From Aphrocallistes beatrix (lineage: Eukaryota; Porifera; Hexactinellida; Sceptrulophora; Aphrocallistidae): 64,000 nucleotides of DNA. Position numbers and translations under genes: made by a program. Position 1 is the first letter of the stretch. Every line of letters begins with the position of its first letter. This document shows positions 8,774-63,953 of the stretch, piece after piece. Under the pieces are notes generated by a model. The model worked only from the letters and a program-made list of their open reading frames with translations, made no database searches and was not told where the DNA came from. The stretch is from positions 539,001-603,000 of the forward strand of contig OY725506.1 in the NCBI GenBank assembly GCA_963281255.1. Direction: 5' to 3'.

Positions 8774-8820
8774 AGTCTGAAAGGGTATAGAATAAAGATA
8801 AAATAAAATAAAATTTCAAA

Positions 8821-11070
8821 ATGTCTAATTCATTTGACGAAAGCAAATGCAACATCTGCAAAAAACCATACACAAATCCCAAATTCCTTCAATGTTTTCA
8901 TGTTTTCTGCTGCGAATGTCTGCATGGCATACTTGACTCACAAAATAGAAGATTAAGTTGCAAAACTTGCAACGAATCGTTGGAAATGACCCACCAAGAC
9001 ATCGATGCACTCTTTGGACATTTGCCATTCCGATTAATCTCCGATTTACAGAGAAATATAGAGAAAATAAACCAAGACCCGAGCTCCATCTTGTGTACAA
9101 AATGTACGTATACTGATATTGGACCTAGAACAGCTATAGCCAATTTCTTCTGTATCCAATGCCAATTCTTCTTCTGTGAATTCGATGCAAAAGCTCACGA
9201 GAAATTTAAGCCCACTCACAACATTGTGCCGGTTGAGGATATTGCATACCGGCCGATTTCCCATCTACTCCCGCCTCAACCGGAAATATACTGCAAAGAA
9301 CACAAAGAATCAGAAATTAACGTTTACTGCCCAAGCTGTGATGTTGCTTGTTGCGAGCTTTGCGCTAGATTCTACCATATCAGACACGAAATAAAGTTAG
9401 TTCAAGATTCGGCAGAATTATTGAAGAAAAAGATAGAAGATCACTTTAAAAGCGCGAGAGAAATGCTTGACCAAATTTATAGCAGGCTACCTGGGTATAC
9501 GGAGCAAATGGAACAAGTTAGAACCGATAAAAAAAGAACTTTGGGAACTATGAATGACACTTTCAAAGAGCTTCAAGACACAATTGAGAGAAGAAGAGTT
9601 GAACTGGAAACGAAAATATCTGCATTTTACGATGAACAATCTAAAATAATCAAGAATTCCATCGAAGCGATGAGTAGCTTTGAGAAGAAAATTAGTAATG
9701 CTGAAAACCACCTCAAATCTTCACTCGAATTCTTCCCAAGTTACTACCTCTTCTCAATATCCGATGCAATTAACTCAAGATTAACCACCATCAAGGATTC
9801 CGTTCCTAGGAAACATTTGAAGGCAACCAGCATTGATTTTACGGTCCCATCGAATGAGCGAAAAGAATTTGAAAACAAAATAGCCAGCATTGGAATCCTA
9901 TCACAAAACACTAAGACGAATTTCAACAATTCTCAGGTGCTCGCTCCATCAAATTTCGGACTTTCAAATGACACCACGGTTCATTGCATTTCGCAAGATG
10001 AGGATAAACTTAGCATTTTGGTGTCAGAGAAAAGCGATGATAGCAAAAAAGTAATACAAAAAATTCACGTCATAGATCCTTGCCATCGAAACATAGAATC
10101 TATTAACCAATCAGATTCAATAGAAAATCCAACACAGATGGCTAAAATGACTTCTGGCCCCGTCCTAGTAACTGATTCGATCAATAGGAATGTAGTCGTC
10201 CTAAATGGGAATAAACCGAAACGGGTCCTAGGGGAAAAGGACAATTTGTCTCTAGTCGACCCAGTTAGCATCTCTGTTATGAAGCAAGGTGAGGAGAAAG
10301 GCCAAGTGGCTGTATACGACAAAAGAACAGGAGAAGTCACCGTTTTAGATAAAGACCTGGAAAAGGTAAATAAGATACCAGTGAAAGAAATGCCCGTAGG
10401 TAGACAGAGAAAAGGATCCACCAGTAGCGTCTACTCTGGGAATAGCTCGAGATCCAACTCCCGGCCTGGTTCCAGGATGAGCGAGGTTAGCACAGATAGC
10501 GGATTCGCAGGAAGTCGACCGACGAGTGGTGCTAACTTTTCCCCGGTTAGTGTAAACTCGGCCGTTGGTAAAATAAAGGAAATTCCATCGCAATACCTAG
10601 CAACGAACTCGAAGAACGAAATCATAATTGCAGATGAAGATGACGCAAGCTATACAGCATACACTCTTGAAGGCGCCAAGATACAGCGAGTCGACTATGC
10701 TAAACACTTTGAAGAGAGAAATGAAAAGAAACCTCTTGTGCGAGCCAATAGTAACAGTTTAAAACCGAACGTTACAAACATTAATACGGGATTGAAAAGG
10801 ACACACAGTGTGAAGAGGATATCAACCCAGTTAGAAAGATCGATTTCACCTAAAACGAGCAGAGAGCGAACCCTAATAACAACGGACAATCTAGACAACG
10901 TATACATTTGCAGGAACAAAACAGTCCTCACTTTTGACTCAAAAAACGCCTATAAAACGAAACAAAAACTGCCAGAAAACATTGATCCAGTTTCTTTCCT
11001 AATCAACTCATTCGGAGAAGCCTACATCTTGTCTTCGAAAGGAGAAATTCACCTATTCGAACGCCTATAA
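8821..11070 (+). CDS. TRIM-type RING/B-box/coiled-coil protein (intronless)
   Basis: Probable E3 ubiquitin ligase of the tripartite-motif type, 749 aa, starting at an ATG shortly after a TATA box. A C3HC4 RING is seen at residues 10-50 (C10, C13, C25, H27, C30, C33, C47, C50). B-box 1 spans about 92-133. B-box 2 spans about 158-189 with the order C158, H161, C170, C173, C178, C181, H186, H189. A charged coiled coil follows to about 330. The C-terminal half looks like a diverged beta-propeller (segments such as VTDSINRNVVVLNG) broken by a Ser/Arg/Gly-rich low-complexity stretch around 530-585. The C-terminus ends in a blade-like segment (AYILSSKGEIHLFERL). The architecture matches TRIM2/3/71-class proteins, but the NHL repeats are too diverged to assign an orthologue. 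It is uninterrupted across 2.25 kb and is a paralogue of the gene at 33102. Substrate unknown. Confidence 0.88.
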   Translation: MSNSFDESKCNICKKPYTNPKFLQCFHVFCCECLHGILDSQNRRLSCKTCNESLEMTHQDIDALFGHLPFRLISDLQRNIEKINQDPSSILCTKCTYTDIGPRTAIANFFCIQCQFFFCEFDAKAHEKFKPTHNIVPVEDIAYRPISHLLPPQPEIYCKEHKESEINVYCPSCDVACCELCARFYHIRHEIKLVQDSAELLKKKIEDHFKSAREMLDQIYSRLPGYTEQMEQVRTDKKRTLGTMNDTFKELQDTIERRRVELETKISAFYDEQSKIIKNSIEAMSSFEKKISNAENHLKSSLEFFPSYYLFSISDAINSRLTTIKDSVPRKHLKATSIDFTVPSNERKEFENKIASIGILSQNTKTNFNNSQVLAPSNFGLSNDTTVHCISQDEDKLSILVSEKSDDSKKVIQKIHVIDPCHRNIESINQSDSIENPTQMAKMTSGPVLVTDSINRNVVVLNGNKPKRVLGEKDNLSLVDPVSISVMKQGEEKGQVAVYDKRTGEVTVLDKDLEKVNKIPVKEMPVGRQRKGSTSSVYSGNSSRSNSRPGSRMSEVSTDSGFAGSRPTSGANFSPVSVNSAVGKIKEIPSQYLATNSKNEIIIADEDDASYTAYTLEGAKIQRVDYAKHFEERNEKKPLVRANSNSLKPNVTNINTGLKRTHSVKRISTQLERSISPKTSRERTLITTDNLDNVYICRNKTVLTFDSKNAYKTKQKLPENIDPVSFLINSFGEAYILSSKGEIHLFERL

Positions 11071-23587: not shown

Positions 23588-23612
23588 TCCTGTGCTCTAA
23601 ACGCTCAAAAGT

Positions 23613-26171
23613 ATGCAGTCCCTAGCAGTAATATTGACTCTTCTAAGTTTGCATTTTATTGATTGCAAGCAGAAGTTGTTTATTTTGGGTCTCTATCCGA
23701 ATACAGGCACTGGATGGACAGAACCATTCGCAGTTTATAGCGCGGATTTAGCAAGAAGACATGTCGAGGAAAGCGGATCAATTCTCGAGGACTACGAACT
23801 CGAAATTGATTGGCAGGACACGGAATGTGATGGTGGAGTTGCGCTTCAATCTTTTTTCAACGCACTTGCAAATAATCGCAACAAAACATATCTCGCGGTT
23901 TTCGGGGGCGGTTGCGCCGTAGCAACAAGTGAGGTCGCAGGAATTTCTTACAGATACGGACTATCCCAGATCGCCTACGCCTCTACTGCTACGAATCTGG
24001 GGAACACTCGACTGTACCCGCAATTCGTTAGAGGCGTTCCATCGGATCGAAACGCTGTGCCAGCGAGAGCCAAGTTCATCAGAGAACAAAACTGGAAACG
24101 TGTCGCCATCATAAACGAGCAAGATCCCATCTTCGTCGCGAGCTCGCACACGATGGAGACTGTGTTGGACGGATTAGGCATCAACTATAGAGTGGAAGAT
24201 TTCGCGCCCAGTGGGTTGATCAGTTTGGAAGACCAGGTGCGTACCATTGCGAGTAACCTCAAAACATTCGGGTACAGGGTAGTTATAGCGAACATGTATG
24301 AAGATGCGGCCATCAAGCTATTCTGTCTGTTAGACAGAGACAATGAATTTCTGTTACTTCCCCCTTACACCACTTGGATATTCCTGGGGTGGTTCACTGA
24401 CCAGTGGCACAATAAACCGAAAGTTCTAAAAGAGGTGAATTGTACGGCAGAACAAGTGGCCAAGGTGTCAAATGGCGCATTGGGATTCCTAGTAGTCCAT
24501 GATGAAGATAATTTTAAAGGGCAGAACAGTAATAGTCGCCTTACTGTATCGAATTATTCGGCGAGTGAACTCTACCAGCAGTATAAGAACCTTACGCTAC
24601 TAGGTTCCATCAACGAAACTCAATTTAACCAAGAATCTGATCCGCATGAAGCATATGTTTATGACTCATTTTGGACGCTCGCTCGCTCTTTACACCAAGC
24701 TGACAAAAATGGGTTCAATTTAGCCACAATTTCTCAAAAAGAAATACTCAAAGATATCGATTTTTTCAAAGCGTTCAGTGATTTCTCTCAGAAAGTCTAT
24801 AATGGAATGAAAGAACAAAATTTTTCAGGGTGGAGTGGTGAGGTGGCTTATATAGGCCATGAGAGGTATTATAATCAAGTGCAAATTCTTGAGTTTGGAA
24901 ACGGAAGTCTTATAAACCGCGGGAATGTAACAAACATCCCCAAAGATCCGGCGATGTACACCGATGTCGATAGTATGGAATATCAGGTTTCAGGGTTTGT
25001 ATACTGGAATGAAGGCAAGGCAACCGACGGAATCGAAACGCATGACATTCCTGATAGCATTTTCGGTATCATTTTCTTCCTTTCATTCTTGATGATCGCT
25101 TACATTAGTTTCTACGTTATATTCATCGTCATTGGTAAAATCAAGGGTTGGGAATCCATCAAGTCGCTATCTCCAATGCTAACCTGCATCATTCTATCAG
25201 GGAACTACTTCATGGTGTTAGCGGGAATATTCCTCATTTCGAACAGCAGAATCGTCAGGAACTCGCAGCAACATTTCGAAACGAACGTGACAGACGAAAT
25301 CGCTACCACTGAAGTATGTTTCACTCACACGTGCAATTTCTTCTGCATGATAATGATAACCCTTCTACTAATGGCTTCCAGTCTGATATTCGGTGGTATG
25401 ATGGCAAGAGCAGCTTTGATTTACATTGTCGCTGTGAAAGAAAAGATTGATTTGAGTAAGAAACATAAATACGCCATGGCTCTCTCTTGGCCGTTCATTC
25501 TGACCATCATTGACCTTCTATACATCCTAATGTGGTCGCTAGCTAGCCCCTTAGTGGTCAAATCTGAAGTCTGGCCCACTGGCCTCGAAAATCCACCTTT
25601 CTTCGAAGTGATCCAATGCCAAATACTCTATCAGAAAAGTTCCCTAACGATCGGGTTCATCATAATCCTAATTATCTACAAATCTATCCTGGTGATAATC
25701 GGACTCGTCATGGCGTACAATCTCCGCTGCGTTAAGAGGGAGAAACTCCAATATGCAAACACGATTTCGTGGACCATGTACAACACAACTTTTTTCACAC
25801 TCGTGTTGATACTGTCTCTCAGCCTAATTCAGGATCATGATGTTAAAATCGGTGTGGTTTGCTTCCTAATCCTTCTAACTGTATTCCTCACCGCCACCAT
25901 AATAGGATCCCCTCCCGTGTATTACTCTATCAAAAAAGATAAAACGATCAATGAATCGCAGAGTGTTGGAAATATTTCTGAAATTGTGCCTAATAAGCAA
26001 ATGTTCCAAGACCAAGTTGACTCGCTTCGAAAGGACAATAGAGATCTTGAAGACAAAAATAAGAAGATGGCTCGAACGTTAACTTCGAGTGGAATTGATT
26101 TTCCTTGTGAGTGGGACCAATCATCCAGTGACACCATTGTTAATAATGGAGCTCCTGAGATTAGTAAATAA
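23613..26171 (+). CDS. class C GPCR, GABA-B receptor-like (intronless)
   Basis: An 852-aa seven-transmembrane receptor. Residues 1-18 look like a signal peptide (MQSLAVILTLLSLHFIDC). About 20-450 is a periplasmic-binding-type Venus flytrap ectodomain (FGGGCAVATSEVAGIS; YPQFVRGVPSDRNAVP; NWKRVAIINEQD). The seven helices run from about 480 to 750. A conserved Cys pair for the extracellular disulphide is present near TM3 (EVCFTHTC) and in loop 2 (EVIQCQILYQ). There is no cysteine-rich domain between flytrap and helices, which is GABA-B-like rather than mGluR-like. The cytoplasmic tail has a short heptad segment (VDSLRKDNRDLEDKNKKMA), reminiscent of the GABBR dimerisation coil. The FxKxWR-type motif after TM3 is replaced by GGMMARAALIYIV, so the receptor is divergent. 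The ligand cannot be inferred. The whole coding region is a single exon. Confidence 0.9.
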   Translation: MQSLAVILTLLSLHFIDCKQKLFILGLYPNTGTGWTEPFAVYSADLARRHVEESGSILEDYELEIDWQDTECDGGVALQSFFNALANNRNKTYLAVFGGGCAVATSEVAGISYRYGLSQIAYASTATNLGNTRLYPQFVRGVPSDRNAVPARAKFIREQNWKRVAIINEQDPIFVASSHTMETVLDGLGINYRVEDFAPSGLISLEDQVRTIASNLKTFGYRVVIANMYEDAAIKLFCLLDRDNEFLLLPPYTTWIFLGWFTDQWHNKPKVLKEVNCTAEQVAKVSNGALGFLVVHDEDNFKGQNSNSRLTVSNYSASELYQQYKNLTLLGSINETQFNQESDPHEAYVYDSFWTLARSLHQADKNGFNLATISQKEILKDIDFFKAFSDFSQKVYNGMKEQNFSGWSGEVAYIGHERYYNQVQILEFGNGSLINRGNVTNIPKDPAMYTDVDSMEYQVSGFVYWNEGKATDGIETHDIPDSIFGIIFFLSFLMIAYISFYVIFIVIGKIKGWESIKSLSPMLTCIILSGNYFMVLAGIFLISNSRIVRNSQQHFETNVTDEIATTEVCFTHTCNFFCMIMITLLLMASSLIFGGMMARAALIYIVAVKEKIDLSKKHKYAMALSWPFILTIIDLLYILMWSLASPLVVKSEVWPTGLENPPFFEVIQCQILYQKSSLTIGFIIILIIYKSILVIIGLVMAYNLRCVKREKLQYANTISWTMYNTTFFTLVLILSLSLIQDHDVKIGVVCFLILLTVFLTATIIGSPPVYYSIKKDKTINESQSVGNISEIVPNKQMFQDQVDSLRKDNRDLEDKNKKMARTLTSSGIDFPCEWDQSSSDTIVNNGAPEISK

Positions 26172-33055: not shown

Positions 33056-33101
33056 CCTAATAGAGTCTTACAGTTAAATATAATTCTACTAACAATACAA
33101 A

Positions 33102-35345
33102 ATGTCAGATCAAGTGGTAGTACAACAGGATCAATTGAAAAAATTCGATCTATTCAATATTGGCGACTGTCAACATTGCCATAAACCGTACAACAACCCT
33201 CACATCCTGAACTGCCTGCACACCTTCTGCTTGGACTGCATCAAACAAATGAGTCATGGAAGCGACCCAAAATGCAGTGTCTGCGAGGAAAAATTTGACA
33301 TTCTAAATGACGGACTGCCTTCGCATTATAGTAACAGAAGCTTTGAAGATCTCGCAAGAGTTAGACTGTTGATGGGGAAGGTTAATGACAAACTCAGTTG
33401 TGAATTGTGTAAAAAGAACACGCCGAAGCAATACTGTCGCGAATGTAAAATGGTTATATGCGAACACGACGCGAAAATACACAGGAAATCCACAAAGGAT
33501 GAGCATCAACTATTCGATTTAAACTTCTTCCGCGATTATGAAAATATCTTCAAATTAATCCCTGAAAATACGATGAATTACTGTAAGCAGCACCCTGAAA
33601 AGCTAATAGAGTTCTATTGCTACAAATGTAACGTTGTGCTCTGTACAGAGTGTGCACATGCGGGACACATGTCAGACCAATGTTACACGAATGAAATGAA
33701 CTCCATGTTCCACGGGCGGAGACAAATGGTGACACAGCGGGAAACGGAACAAGGTGTGAAGATTGAAAATCTATCAGTACAGGTACAGCACCATTCGAAA
33801 CAGATTGAAGAGATTACAAAGGAAGAAGAGGAACTGCTGAATAAAATCAACAAGGAATTTAACGATTATATCAACAAATTGGTATTGAGAAAGGATGAAC
33901 TGACCAATAGAGTGACAACAGTTTTTGCTCAGAGAAGAAAGGAGTTGGAAAAGGTGATTACAGCTCACAAAGATTTCATCAGAGATTCAAAACACCTTCT
34001 AGATATGACTTCCTTCTTCCTAAACGACCTCCCAGGAACCCATCTGTTCCCTCCAGCAGTGGCGATATGCAACAAAATGGACAGTTTGGAGAGAAGCCGC
34101 CCGGCGATCAGCGCAGATCTGAACCAATTAGATTTCGCGTTCACTCGAGATTCCCACTACAGCCACGAACCACAGCGCCTTGGGAAACTGAGTTTCCGAT
34201 TTCCGCTCGGCTTTGAAAGTTCCAGGCATGACGTGGAGGTCAGTACAAAGATGAAGCTGCCCTTTGACTTCAAGATCAAAGGAATGTCTCAGACTTCAAA
34301 AGGAACCATACAGCTCTTCCTTCAGGAGAAAAGCCAGGAGAAAGGCCAGAAGAAGAAGAATAATCAGAATCACATCCTCCGACTGAACAATTGCTTCCAG
34401 CCAGTTCATGCGAATAAATGGCTTGAACGAATTACGTCACTCGATGACTGTTCGGATAACATCCATTTGAGCGCTACACCAGAAGGAACCAGCCTTATCG
34501 TAGACAGGAATAACAGACTGTTCAGATCAATTTCAAACGGCCGCGTTAACAGTTCGCTCTCGAGGGAATCCAACTCAAACAACTGTCTGCAAGATCCGGT
34601 CAATGTTATCGGTCGGCAAGATGAAGGATTCATTGTCTTCAACAAGGAGTCGAATATAGTCGAGTTGTATAGCAAGGACAGTCAGTTGGAGAACTCTTTC
34701 GAGGTCTATCCGCCTCCGAGAACGATGAATCCTAGCACCCCTACGACACGCGGAATAAGTGCCACGCCCGATCCGTCCATGGCGGGAGGATTCATTTCTT
34801 TCCCTTCAAAGAATAGATCGCCAGATCCCAAAGACGCATCGCCATTCTCCAGCCTTGTGATTGGCTGCAACTCCCACGACGAGATTTACTATGCTTACGA
34901 CACGAAACCTGTCATAATGCGGTTCAACAAGAAAGGAGAAAAGATCGGAGAGAAAGCATTCGCTGAACCCAAAGGAGAGACTACGAATAAAGGGATAAGT
35001 TCCACTAAAAATGCCAACACTTTAAAGGTCCCCTTAGAACGTAGCGGTACTCTTCGTAAAGGAAATCGCCCCCCTTCATCCATGCAAAAGCCTATGAGCC
35101 TCACAATCCCAATCCCACAGCAAACCCATTCCACGAAGACGAAAAGTATGCGAACTCTCCTCGCCATCGATCCCTTCAATAACGTTTTCGTGTACCAAGC
35201 TGGGTACATTTACGTGCTCAACATATCTCTGGATAGCGTGCAGGCCAAAGGGAAGGTCAACTTTGAACCGGATTACATGATGGTAACCGAAATGGGTCAG
35301 ATTATTCTTGCAACGCGTGAGGATACTATGATCCATGTTTATTAG
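33102..35345 (+). CDS. TRIM-type RING/B-box/coiled-coil protein (intronless paralogue)
   Basis: 747 aa, nearly the same length as the TRIM protein at 8821. RING C3HC4 at residues 23-61 (C23, C26, C38, H40, C43, C46, C58, C61). B-box 1 spans about 100-135 (CELCKKN..., CRECKMVICEHDAKIH). B-box 2 spans about 160-200 (YCKQHPEKLIEFYCYKC, CTECAHAGH). A coiled coil runs from about 205 to 310. The C-terminal region has propeller-like segments (TSLIVDRNNRLFRSI; VNVIGRQDEGFIVFNKE; LAIDPFNNVFVYQAGYIYVL) and a Pro/Ser-rich insert around 545-590. A second basic/Ser-rich stretch lies near 650-690. Shared length, domain order, single-exon structure and TATA spacing make it a duplicate of the first gene, now strongly diverged outside the zinc fingers. 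Probable E3 ligase; substrate unknown. Confidence 0.87.
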   Translation: MSDQVVVQQDQLKKFDLFNIGDCQHCHKPYNNPHILNCLHTFCLDCIKQMSHGSDPKCSVCEEKFDILNDGLPSHYSNRSFEDLARVRLLMGKVNDKLSCELCKKNTPKQYCRECKMVICEHDAKIHRKSTKDEHQLFDLNFFRDYENIFKLIPENTMNYCKQHPEKLIEFYCYKCNVVLCTECAHAGHMSDQCYTNEMNSMFHGRRQMVTQRETEQGVKIENLSVQVQHHSKQIEEITKEEEELLNKINKEFNDYINKLVLRKDELTNRVTTVFAQRRKELEKVITAHKDFIRDSKHLLDMTSFFLNDLPGTHLFPPAVAICNKMDSLERSRPAISADLNQLDFAFTRDSHYSHEPQRLGKLSFRFPLGFESSRHDVEVSTKMKLPFDFKIKGMSQTSKGTIQLFLQEKSQEKGQKKKNNQNHILRLNNCFQPVHANKWLERITSLDDCSDNIHLSATPEGTSLIVDRNNRLFRSISNGRVNSSLSRESNSNNCLQDPVNVIGRQDEGFIVFNKESNIVELYSKDSQLENSFEVYPPPRTMNPSTPTTRGISATPDPSMAGGFISFPSKNRSPDPKDASPFSSLVIGCNSHDEIYYAYDTKPVIMRFNKKGEKIGEKAFAEPKGETTNKGISSTKNANTLKVPLERSGTLRKGNRPPSSMQKPMSLTIPIPQQTHSTKTKSMRTLLAIDPFNNVFVYQAGYIYVLNISLDSVQAKGKVNFEPDYMMVTEMGQIILATREDTMIHVY

Positions 35346-60453: not shown

Positions 60454-61075
60454 GAGTTGTTATTCTAGCTATAACTGTACGAGTTGTTTAATAATTGAGG
60501 CTTTTACAGACTGATAACAATTTTGTTTAATAATTGTCATTAATTGATTTATATTAAAGAAAGCTTCAAACTGAATTCAACAATTCCAAGTTAGTTGGAA
60601 CCATGGACATCTCATTAGATAGCAAACATTGGGGAAGTACTATTATAGACTTTGTATATAGCAAATTATGTAACCACATGACGCGTTGAGAAAATTCTGT
60701 CAAGTCAGAAGATTGAACAATAATGATTTAAGGAAGAGTGCAGAAGATTTGTGATCGTTCCAAATACTTTTTGAAACCAGGAACTGTACAATCATAGGAT
60801 ATATAAGTGTAGTCTACGAGTGTACCTCCTCATCATGAAGTTAGCAAACAAGGTCAGATTTCAAGTGAGCTAATTGGACACACTGGTCTATTAGTCTGTT
60901 ATGCTTAATTGGAAAGATTAATCTTAGACTGTGTCTTCAAGTTTGTGTTAGTTGTGGCTTCAATTAGTTGCCATTGTTTACCATGAGACCTGATTTGGAA
61001 GGAGTTTACAGGACTTGGATTTGGACAATGGATAGTTGTATCATATAATAAGAGCAGAGAGCAGTGATACTAAGG
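60454..61075. other. spacer without recognised features
   Basis: About 620 bp between the Rabin8 polyadenylation signal and the first MITE. Nothing was recognised. Confidence 0.4.
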
Positions 61076-61284
61076 CATACATGTAAACTTTCCCGTTTTT
61101 GGCTGGATATCCCGCTTTTTCTCTTTTTATGGGATAATTTTCTCGAGTGTCCCGTTTTTATATGAAATTTCCCTTATGTCCCGCTTTTTTTGAGTCCATG
61201 TATAATACTTCTATTACGTCCCGCCATGTCCCGCGAAATCCAACGCCGCATCTCGCTTTAATCATGGCTCAAGTTGGCGTGTAG
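61076..61284 (+). mobile_element. MITE family Z (TCCCGTTTTTGG), copy 1
   Basis: CATACATGTAAACTTTCCCG at the left and CAAGTTGGCGTGTAG at the right are weak inverted ends. The interior repeats GTCCCGCTTTT and CCCGCCATGTCCCGCG. Direct relative of 62006-62221. Confidence 0.65.
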
Positions 61285-61500: not shown

Positions 61501-62005
61501 AATTATAATTATATAACGGAACTAATAATGCACTAAGAATATATATATAGACTATACGCAGCCCAGTCAAACTACATAGAATGTCTTACATACGTATTGA
61601 ACAATGTTTAGACTGTAACTGTATGCAGTGGGGGATTATAACCACTGAGGCTCGAAACCAGATGTATAGACTAGATACCTTGGTAGGGGTTTCAACCTCT
61701 TCAAATGTAGAGTTGGCGCAATACCAATTGCTTTAATATTTGTTTTTCATTTCGTGTATTTAGAACAAAGTAACAAAGTTGAGTGACATTGGAATAAAAT
61801 GTAAACATTTCGCTAAACTATGTAAATAAATGGGAGATGAGTGGACTTAGTGGATACAAATGTCTATGTTTCCCCTAAAAGCATCAACATACCATATTTG
61901 GTATTGGCATGGACGCATGTTACTATGATGGCTTTACCTGTGCTGTAACGTAGATTCTAATAAGTGATTCAAGAAGTTCTTACAGTCAGTTGGAATATAC
62001 AATGT

Positions 62006-62221
62006 CATACTTGTCAACTGTCCCGTTTTTGGCGGGACGTCCCGCTTTTTTCACTCTTCTATTGAGCTAATTTCAATTGGGTATCCCGCTTCTAAATGAA
62101 ATTTCCCCATTATGTCCTGCATTTTTGTATTCTATGTATAGTACTTTCTATTGCGTCCCGCCATGTCCCGCGAAATTCAATGCTGCGTCCTGCTTTTATC
62201 ATAGCTCAGGTTGGATGTATG
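62006..62221 (+). mobile_element. MITE family Z, copy 2
   Basis: Ends CATACTTGTCAACTG and CAGGTTGGATGTATG are inverted. CAATGT flanks both sides (62000-62005, 62222-62227), suggesting a duplication of at least 6 bp. Interior as in the copy at 61076. Confidence 0.7.
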
Positions 62222-62405
62222 CAATGTCAATGTAAGTGCACTGAATTCATAATTGCAACTAGACAGGCAATGTCTACTTCATCGAATACCTAATGCTAGA
62301 CAAAATACTGAGGTGTCAGCCTATAGGCCTATGCTACTACAATGGATTGCACATTCCTGTGAGTGAAGCAATGCAAGCCTGGGAGAAATACAGCTTCCAA
62401 AGAAA

Positions 62406-62492
62406 TGACCTTTGTTTTAAGGTCAATTTGAGTTTTTGCTGGGAAAACTGACCTTCCATCCATTGTTGGAGATTATTCACACTCAAAGGTCA
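62406..62492. promoter_or_regulatory. cluster of four nuclear-receptor half-sites upstream of CPT1
   Basis: Perfect AGGTCA hexamers at 62406-62411 (-), 62420-62425 (+), 62449-62454 (-) and 62487-62492 (+). Their 5' extensions (ACAAAGGTCA, TTTAAGGTCA, GGAAGGTCA, TCAAAGGTCA) fit HNF4/ERR-type monomer or extended half-sites. The cluster ends 13 bp before a TATA-like box. In other animals CPT1 genes are controlled by fatty-acid-responsive nuclear receptors; function here is inferred. Confidence 0.6.
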
Positions 62493-62504
62493 GTTTGTAG
62501 CGTC

Positions 62505-62512
62505 TATATATT
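62505..62512 (+). promoter_or_regulatory. TATA-like box of CPT1
   Basis: TATATATT lies about 90 bp before a GTACGT donor (intron from 62593) of a presumed noncoding first exon. Confidence 0.5.
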
Positions 62513-62831
62513 TTAGCGCGGTCCTTGCTTTTCATTTACATTTCCGTACTGCATTCTTGTTCTATTAACTGATACACTTGTTCATTTCCAAGGTACGTAT
62601 TTCAATGATTTCAATGTGTTTGATGTTCTCTAAATCTAAACTTTTATTTAGGCTTTCACCTCATCACTTTGTGAATAATATTATTTATACATACATGTTG
62701 TATTCCATATTTTCCAAACTCGAGTCAAAATTATGAATTATCAGTAGATGACGTGAAATCTACGTTGTCGTATTTCTTTAGTTTGTGCTGGAGTTTACGA
62801 ATCAATATATTTCAATGTTTTTATTTTGCAG

Positions 62832-63953
62832 AAGTAGTCGCTAATGGCAGAAGCCTCAGCTGCTGTGGGATTCCAGTTCTCTGTTGGAGATGACGGCATA
62901 CACTACCAATTCAGTGCTAAAGTTCTCTACGCCATCCTACGCCTATTCTTCCGCGGTTACAGGAAAAGAATCGCGAGGATTTCCAATACGATACGCCAGG
63001 GGACTTTCCCGTCGTCTCCTCTCCACTTCCTCACCATAGAAATCTCCCTCATGCTGTATCTGATAGCTTTCTCTGGAAATGCTTGGCCGTTGGATCTAGT
63101 TTTCTACTACATCGACTTCGTTTTCAAGTTCCTGCCTTGGTGAGTGGGAGCTAGATATAATTAGTAATTTGCGAATGACGTCATAAAAACTCCCTGAAAA
63201 TGAGTACAGTGGAATTTGCTTATTAGCAACTCGGATTTTGCTCACAAAAGTTGCTAATAAGGGAACAGAATTAATACAAAATCTACACATGGGACCTGAA
63301 AATTGTTTGCTAATAGAGCAATATTGCTAATGGTAGAGTTGCTCATAAGCGAACTCATTGTATTGTACAAATATTAAAACATTGTATTTATTTTCAATTA
63401 ATTAATTAATTAAATCTAATCATATAAGCAAATAAAGAATGATTATCTCATTTATCTTGCAATATCTTGGAACGAGAGTAGAATTAATTGAAACTCGATC
63501 CATCCATTATCGTGCATCAGCTATTGCAGTCATTCTAATGCTAGGCTGTTTACAGGAAACTAACATAGCTGAAAATTAGATTAACACTTCGCACCTAACT
63601 TCAGAGTTCATTGGTTTAGATATCATTGTGGTTGACTAATCAACAATTCACTTGTACAACTGTCTATTGAAGGTGCAAACCTTTTGAATTAGGTCAAATT
63701 ACCTAAGAGTTTCAAATAACATTTTAATTATGCAACGTTTCATGTTCACATTTCGTGTTTATTTGCATTTGATTCGTTTTAGGTACTCGAAGTTTTACAA
63801 CCTATTCCAGATTTTCCTTACCACCCTACCCATCGCCATTCCTCTCTGGTTCTTGGTTGCCATAACTCTACAAACCTGTTTCAAGCTGTTGCTAATGCAC
63901 ACCCACTGGATATTCGATAATCCGAAAAAGCCATCACTCAAAACCAAGATATG
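62832..63953 (+). CDS. CPT1: carnitine O-palmitoyltransferase 1, N-terminal exons (partial)
   Basis: The coding start is the ATG at 62844, in an exon that begins at 62832 after an AG acceptor. The preceding intron (62593-62831) separates a 5' untranslated exon. Coding exons 62844-63139 and 63783-63953 join in phase and give 155 residues plus two bases; the rest lies beyond the window. The N-terminus MAEASAAVGFQFSVGDDGI matches the CPT1 regulatory domain (mammalian MAEAHQAVAFQFTV). Two membrane segments follow (about 55-75 and 107-140). The last exon ends at the conserved KTKIW junction. The enzyme sits in the outer mitochondrial membrane and makes acylcarnitines for fatty-acid import. Glu3, used in malonyl-CoA inhibition, is conserved, but residue 5 is Ser instead of His. 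Confidence 0.9.
63207..63360. mobile_element. pogo-like MITE, family P6, in a CPT1 intron
   Basis: CAGTGGAATTTGCTTATTAG and CTCATAAGCGAACTCATTG are imperfect inverted ends flanked by TA. GTTGCTAATAAG words recur inside. Confidence 0.72.

Follow-up and report, generated by a model that had tools for sequence, protein, structure and literature searches.

The stretch of DNA analysed here, which we call the window, comprises 64,000 nucleotides of the hexactinellid sponge Aphrocallistes beatrix (C20:539001-603000, in a genome searched over 100.5 Mb and 28 contigs), and close to its end begins a gene that continues beyond it. The first coding exon of this gene (62844 on) matches the CPT_N domain (PF16484, E 1.1e-14), and seven of ten open frames tested downstream match the carnitine acyltransferase family (PF00755) at E 0.001, in the order of the profile, one of the seven falling just under the curated cut-off while the remaining three have no match at that threshold. 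A CPT_N regulatory domain followed by a carnitine acyltransferase domain identifies the gene as CPT1, the name it had been given in the preliminary description; a search of solved structures with the N-terminal exon returned nothing at E 0.001. Upstream of the coding sequence lies what looks like a compact core promoter (Table 1). At 62534 a candidate initiator A was picked out by eye. Its distance of 29 bp from the first base of the TATA-like box upstream, together with the initiator-like word TCA, makes this the predicted start of transcription. The splice signals of the predicted first intron read CCAAG/GTACGT at the donor (GT at 62593) and TTTTGCAG/AAG at the acceptor. In the part of the Amphimedon promoter survey available to us, a TATA box is placed about 30 bp upstream in 26% of the promoters covered (PMC4773876), so that a TATA promoter is nothing odd in that sponge; the main text of the same article is without the words nuclear receptor, HNF4 or RXR.

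Table 1. Features at the 5' end of the CPT1 gene (positions in the window).
Feature	Position	Strand	Basis and remarks
Dispersed-repeat copy, not part of the cluster	61996..62225		blastn; about 180 bp separate its end from half-site 1
Half-site 1	62406..62411	-	exact AGGTCA; minus strand reads ACAAAGGTCA
Half-site 2	62420..62425	+	exact AGGTCA; TTAAGGTCAATT
Half-site 3	62449..62454	-	exact AGGTCA; minus strand reads GGAAGGTCAGTTTT
Half-site 4	62487..62492	+	exact AGGTCA; TCAAAGGTCAGTTT; 12 bp 5' of the TATA-like box
TATA-like box TATATATTTTA	62505..62515	+	sequence; presumed function
Predicted noncoding first exon of CPT1, 59 bases	62534..62592	+	sequence; presumed start
Predicted intron 1, 5' untranslated region	62593..62831	+	donor and acceptor in sequence
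Predicted exon 2, ATG 62844, CPT_N domain	62832..63139	+	PF16484; gene runs past the window

Four exact AGGTCA hexamers on alternating strands span 87 bp of the CPT1 promoter (62406-62492), in front of the TATA-like box and the predicted noncoding exon, and in this respect the locus is exactly as first described. All four occur in the extended form AAGGTCA. The first two make an everted repeat with an 8-bp spacer (ER8), and the following spacers are 23 and 32 bp long, always in alternating orientation, with no DR1 or DR4 among the promoter half-sites; an HNF4-type DR1, two half-sites in direct repeat with a 1-bp spacer, is thus absent from this promoter. As spacers of 8, 23 and 32 bp amount to a non-standard dimer geometry, the sites may bind monomers, or nothing.

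How unusual such an assembly is depends on the scale considered. Over the window as a whole an enrichment in AGGTCA must be rejected (25 copies present, 28.3 expected from shuffles), and the initial impression that even one such hexamer is unexpected holds at the 90-bp scale only. There, none of 5000 dinucleotide shuffles of 62400-62530 reaches four copies, the maximum being two; Markov sequence simulated at orders 2 and 4, 3.84 Mb each, contains no AGGTCA triple within 87 bp, and a background of 17 other places, 10 kb each, has at most two copies in any 90 bp for a total of 51 in 170 kb. A control points in the opposite direction: among 2080 strand-collapsed hexamers 46 form a four-in-90-bp cluster somewhere in the window, many of which share the same few repeated spots (near 43.4, 45.7 and 50.6 kb). 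AGGTCA is the sixth rarest of these 46, and AAGGTC, also one of them, is the same cluster seen again. Once all hexamers and all places in the window are allowed for, the promoter cluster by itself is only marginal, a hand estimate (2080 x 490 x 9.4e-8) giving about 0.1. AGGTCA sites are nevertheless more clustered than chance, with the 46 clustering hexamers as the reservation. Another cluster of the four-in-90-bp kind, formed by GGTCCA (19 copies in the window), runs from 55261 onward.

Beyond the end of the window, the same gene carries a second cluster, of six AGGTCA within 254 bp (C20:605002-605255; L008:4002-4255, where L008 is C20:601001-611000; 66002-66255 if the numbering of the window is continued). 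Coding sequence matches the profile at positions 129-152 on one side of it and at 196-263 on the other, which places it presumably in an intron. The Poisson probability of this cluster is 3.3e-10 for its stretch and, by a hand estimate, about 2e-8 over the 68 such stretches that make up 18 kb of new sequence; none of 5000 shuffles of the stretch reaches six copies, the maximum being three. Since the hexamer had been fixed beforehand, the intronic cluster is an independent test, and this later find removes most of the doubt over the promoter cluster. In total 252 kb were compared, 82 kb around CPT1 and the background of 170 kb, and the two clusters contribute four and six AGGTCA against 75 elsewhere. 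Of all hexamers present twice or more in the promoter stretch or three times or more in the intron stretch, AGGTCA is the one whose combined probability is smallest. Exact pairs with a spacer of 12 bp or less occur only three times in the 252 kb, as the ER8 of the promoter and as an IR10 and a DR4 in the intron, with none in the 170-kb background. The sole match to the near-DR1 pattern [AT]GGTCAnAGGTCA in the 252 kb, again with none in the background, is found in the intronic cluster, where it reads TGGTCAAAGGTCA, a DR1 with one mismatch. Exact or nearly exact paired half-sites are therefore what the gene displays: ten exact sites, with ER8, IR10, DR4 and a one-mismatch DR1 among their arrangements. 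Past CPT1, at C20:613914-613970 (L009:2914-2970), an AAGGTCA is followed by the perfect palindrome GACAAAGGTCCTGACCTTTGTC; no gene or standout open frame was recognised by eye beside this pair.

Were the hexamers receptor sites, their flanks should show a receptor preference, whereas chance hexamers should have flanks like those of the 75 other AGGTCA in the 252 kb. An A at -1 is present in eight of ten CPT1 sites and in 24 of 75 elsewhere (p 0.005, uncorrected), and CAA at -3 to -1 in four of ten and two of 75, respectively (p 0.0014, uncorrected), these tests being based on ten sites. Every promoter site has at least four flanking bases in common with some intronic site, a situation met in five of 20000 random draws, with a threshold of four bases chosen after the common words had been seen; the total of common flanking bases is a weaker statistic (p 0.024). 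The HNF4-like extension CAAAGGTCA, which we take to be an HNF4/RXR-type half-site, is found in two of the four promoter sites and two of the six intronic ones; it is absent from the 170-kb background, and the 82 kb around CPT1 hold two further copies, each downstream of the clusters and outside the window. The 5' extensions had been likened in the preliminary description to HNF4/ERR-type sites, and the HNF4 half of that likeness stands. The ERR half fares poorly: the ERR-like TNAAGGTCA, presumably the ERR-type extension, fits one promoter site in four (62420), and the receptor loci described below are not closest to ERR. It was noticed afterwards that a T at +2 is present in eight of the ten CPT1 sites and in 32 of 75 elsewhere. 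A word resembling AGGTCARTT is common to 62420-62500 of the window and to the intronic cluster, possibly part of a longer, lineage-specific receptor motif.

Which proteins might read these sites can be asked of the genome itself. Family searches recovered two zf-C4 DNA-binding exons (C15:911078 and C8:1599555). The ligand-domain exons recovered number four, of which C8 has a single one and C15 the other three, arranged in order; as domains split between exons can be missed, two receptor loci are a lower bound. The C15 receptor would span at least 84 kb (C15:911078-995500), its exons being assigned to one gene from their order and strand, while the C8 receptor, unlike it, is single-exon, one open frame with both domains (C8:1599555-1600748). 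The DNA-binding domain of the C15 receptor matches human NR2C2 best, then RXR, USP and COUP-TF; its ligand-domain exon matches USP/RXR best, helix-5 Arg and helix-7 RxxxE both lining up, so that on alignment it has the features of a sponge NR1 (RXR/HNF4-like ligand domain, helix-5 Arg, H7 RxxxE). The ligand domain of the C8 receptor matches HNF4 best, with an Ala in the column of HNF4's helix-5 Arg and L...K in place of RxxxE. On alignment this is the pattern of a sponge NR2 (HNF4-like ligand domain, RxxxE lost), with a DNA-binding domain that does not favour HNF4 (54.4 bits, against 68.5 for the estrogen receptor and 59.8 for ERR). The P-boxes of the two receptors, CEACKS and CEACKC, are unusual as far as we can judge. 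No ERR, TR or PPAR was recognised among the two loci in a search that covered two DNA-binding and four ligand-domain exons and in which split exons can be missed. With the same proviso on exon-split domains, ERR was rejected as the protein that reads the sites, since none of the genes recognised was ERR-like and its extension fits a single promoter site; neither locus being closest to ERR, 'ERR-type' is probably the wrong label here.

This repertoire is of a known kind. As far as the available parts of the published accounts go, sponges have two receptors, of which NR1 retains RxxxE and is a ligand-activated receptor that binds fatty acids (PMC2950128; PMC8092661), the serum ligand of Amphimedon NR1 being probably a fatty acid (PMC2950128), and of which NR2 is related to HNF4 and has lost RxxxE (PMC8092661); placozoans have four nuclear receptors (PMC2950128). 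Within the same limits, the two loci found here correspond in number to the demosponge AqNR1/SpNR1 and AqNR2/SpNR2, the C15 receptor resembling SpNR1 in keeping helix-5 Arg and RxxxE and the C8 receptor resembling SpNR2, RxxxE being gone and HNF4 being the best match of its ligand domain. The portions of the demosponge work accessible to us covered ligand binding, activation by GAL4 fusions and dimerisation, and mentioned neither a DNA element nor a native target gene; nor did we find a native target of sponge nuclear receptors among the matches listed in open-licence literature, as far as those sources are accessible. That literature yielded no paper pairing Amphimedon with carnitine palmitoyltransferase, and none of the matches listed, judged by title, concerns CPT1 regulation in a sponge.

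The closest parallel is mammalian CPT1A, which, from the accessible parts of two articles, owes its induction by fatty acids to intronic PPREs and its induction by thyroid hormone to elements of the promoter (PMC10076611, PMC6214012), with first-intron elements named in titles that these articles cite. It is the same gene under thyroid-hormone and PPAR control, with nuclear-receptor elements in promoter and introns, insofar as these sources go. The sponge locus differs in that no promoter site is more than 130 bp away from the predicted start, in that the intron is a later one, in the coding region, and in that neither of the two loci found was recognised as a TR, PPAR or ERR gene. With the DR1 elements of HNF4/RXR it has in common the CAAAGGTCA half-sites and the single TGGTCAAAGGTCA of the intron, whereas the promoter is without DR1 and has an ER8. 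The same physiological logic is found in an invertebrate, Drosophila, where HNF4 acts on lipid metabolism and beta-oxidation genes according to the portion of the report consulted (PMC4869932), but this is a bilaterian, and the main text of that article gives no match for CPT, whd or withered.

We may therefore take as our working model, and one that we consider reasonably probable, that the half-sites of promoter and intron are the two parts of one nuclear-receptor response unit, which controls CPT1 with a fatty-acid feed-forward logic. The sites, their clustering, their flank preference, the identity of the gene and the two receptor loci are observed here; from these we infer binding, the identity of the receptors, the ligand and the direction of the effect. 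The four promoter half-sites would constitute the first part of the unit and the six intronic ones the second, both working together. The most likely binders would be the NR1/RXR-like C15 receptor and the C8 receptor with its HNF4-like ligand domain, which would occupy the ER8, IR10, DR1-like and DR4 pairings of (C)AAAGGTCA either as homodimers or next to each other; that so few receptors are present in the genome lessens the ambiguity over which of them reads an AGGTCA site. C15 would be the best candidate sensor, while C8 may co-bind or be constitutive. A long-chain fatty acid would bind the receptor, the receptor would step up transcription of CPT1 at its TATA promoter, and the enzyme would in turn send the fatty acid to oxidation, in what would be a feed-forward induction of fat burning. 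As C15 keeps the helix-5 Arg that holds the fatty-acid carboxylate in its relatives, a logic of this type is probable. The lipid-sensing interpretation of the cluster offered at the outset is thus retained insofar as the sites are real, clustered, outside the dispersed repeat, beside a plausible core promoter and echoed in the intron, and it loses its ERR label; its further suggestion that the locus may be direct evidence for a lipid-sensing circuit went too far, as what is at hand are candidate sites known from sequence. The counts cover 252 kb; other dense AGGTCA clusters may exist at unrelated genes elsewhere in the genome, and the specificity of the clusters for lipid genes is a guess.

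Several other explanations have to be weighed. The one that survives best, though we consider it unlikely, would accept that receptors occupy the sites and see in these an activator or repressor element of constitutive or developmental function (for example for a COUP/NR2C-like repressor), without fatty-acid sensing. NR2C/COUP-type receptors bind promiscuously, or as monomers, at odd half-site spacings, and spacings such as those found here would suit them; the affinities of the C15 DNA-binding domain point the same way, as does the lack in C8 of the carboxylate-binding Arg in its column. Against this stand the helix-5 Arg and RxxxE that C15 retains, the nature of the target, which is the gate of fatty-acid oxidation, and the activation of Amphimedon NR1 by a lipid from serum that may be a fatty acid, according to the available part of the report (PMC2950128). 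It is considerably more doubtful that AAGGTCA(R)TT is, in this lineage, the motif of a transcription factor from another family. The frequent T at +2 hints at a motif longer than the classic half-site, but AGGTCA preceded by CAA is the textbook nuclear-receptor half-site, and nuclear receptors are there in the genome. Marginally less probable still is a chance or compositional cluster of functionless hexamers. The flat count over the window, the 46 hexamers that cluster as tightly and the marginal value of the promoter cluster alone would all be expected on that account; the shuffles in each region, the simulations devoid of triples, the independent second cluster in the same gene and flanks unlike those of the 75 control sites are not, and the case for non-chance clustering rests on both clusters and their flanks taken together.

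Finally, the idea that the clusters derive from a mobile element or a local duplication, to which the neighbouring dispersed repeat and the words of 10-11 bp common to promoter and intron might lend colour, is very improbable, as 62300-62700 (401 bp) has a single match in the genome, itself, in a search that skips very common words, as blastn of the intron gives no copy in the 252 kb and five other loci, and as the common words stop at 11 bp while site order and spacing differ. The promoter cluster was accordingly rejected both as part of a dispersed repeat, which ends about 180 bp upstream, and as the source of a duplication into the intron, no longer homology being present; the preliminary description had made its reading depend on the first of these points, and the reading survives it. 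The repeat itself is about 220 bp long and rich in TCCCG words, with copies 79-89% identical by blastn. Further copies are found at 61067-61277 of the window, at L008 about 2070-2290, L013 5141-5371 and L024 3334-3548, with a partial one in L011; one copy lies just upstream of CPT1 and one probably inside a CPT1 intron.

CPT1 is the rate-limiting enzyme of fat burning. What is new here is the intronic cluster of six AGGTCA; predicted receptor sites at CPT1 are of a known kind, and they are now met in a lineage that would bear on what the first nuclear receptors regulated. That a loop from fatty acid to nuclear receptor to CPT1 was the ancestral circuit of these receptors is a tentative proposal, to which we would give somewhat less than even chances. 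If it were true, the control of CPT1 that PPAR, TR, ERR and HNF4 exert in vertebrates would predate the expansion of the superfamily, and a sponge with perhaps two receptors, one of them of the fatty-acid-sensing NR1 type, would already place dense sites at promoter and intron of CPT1. Judging from these sequences, the link of fat sensing to fat burning may be very old. With ten sites in about 340 bp, the locus makes a short and mutable target that bears on whether the sensing of fatty acids was tied to their burning near the root of the animals.

Other genes of the window deserve a brief mention. A single open frame of 856 aa at 23601-26171 carries an ANF_receptor ligand domain; from its hydrophobic second half it is read as a class C GPCR, no 7-TM family being matched at E 0.001. 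At 8812-11070 and 33093-35345 there are two single-frame RING/B-box (TRIM-like) proteins of about 750 aa.
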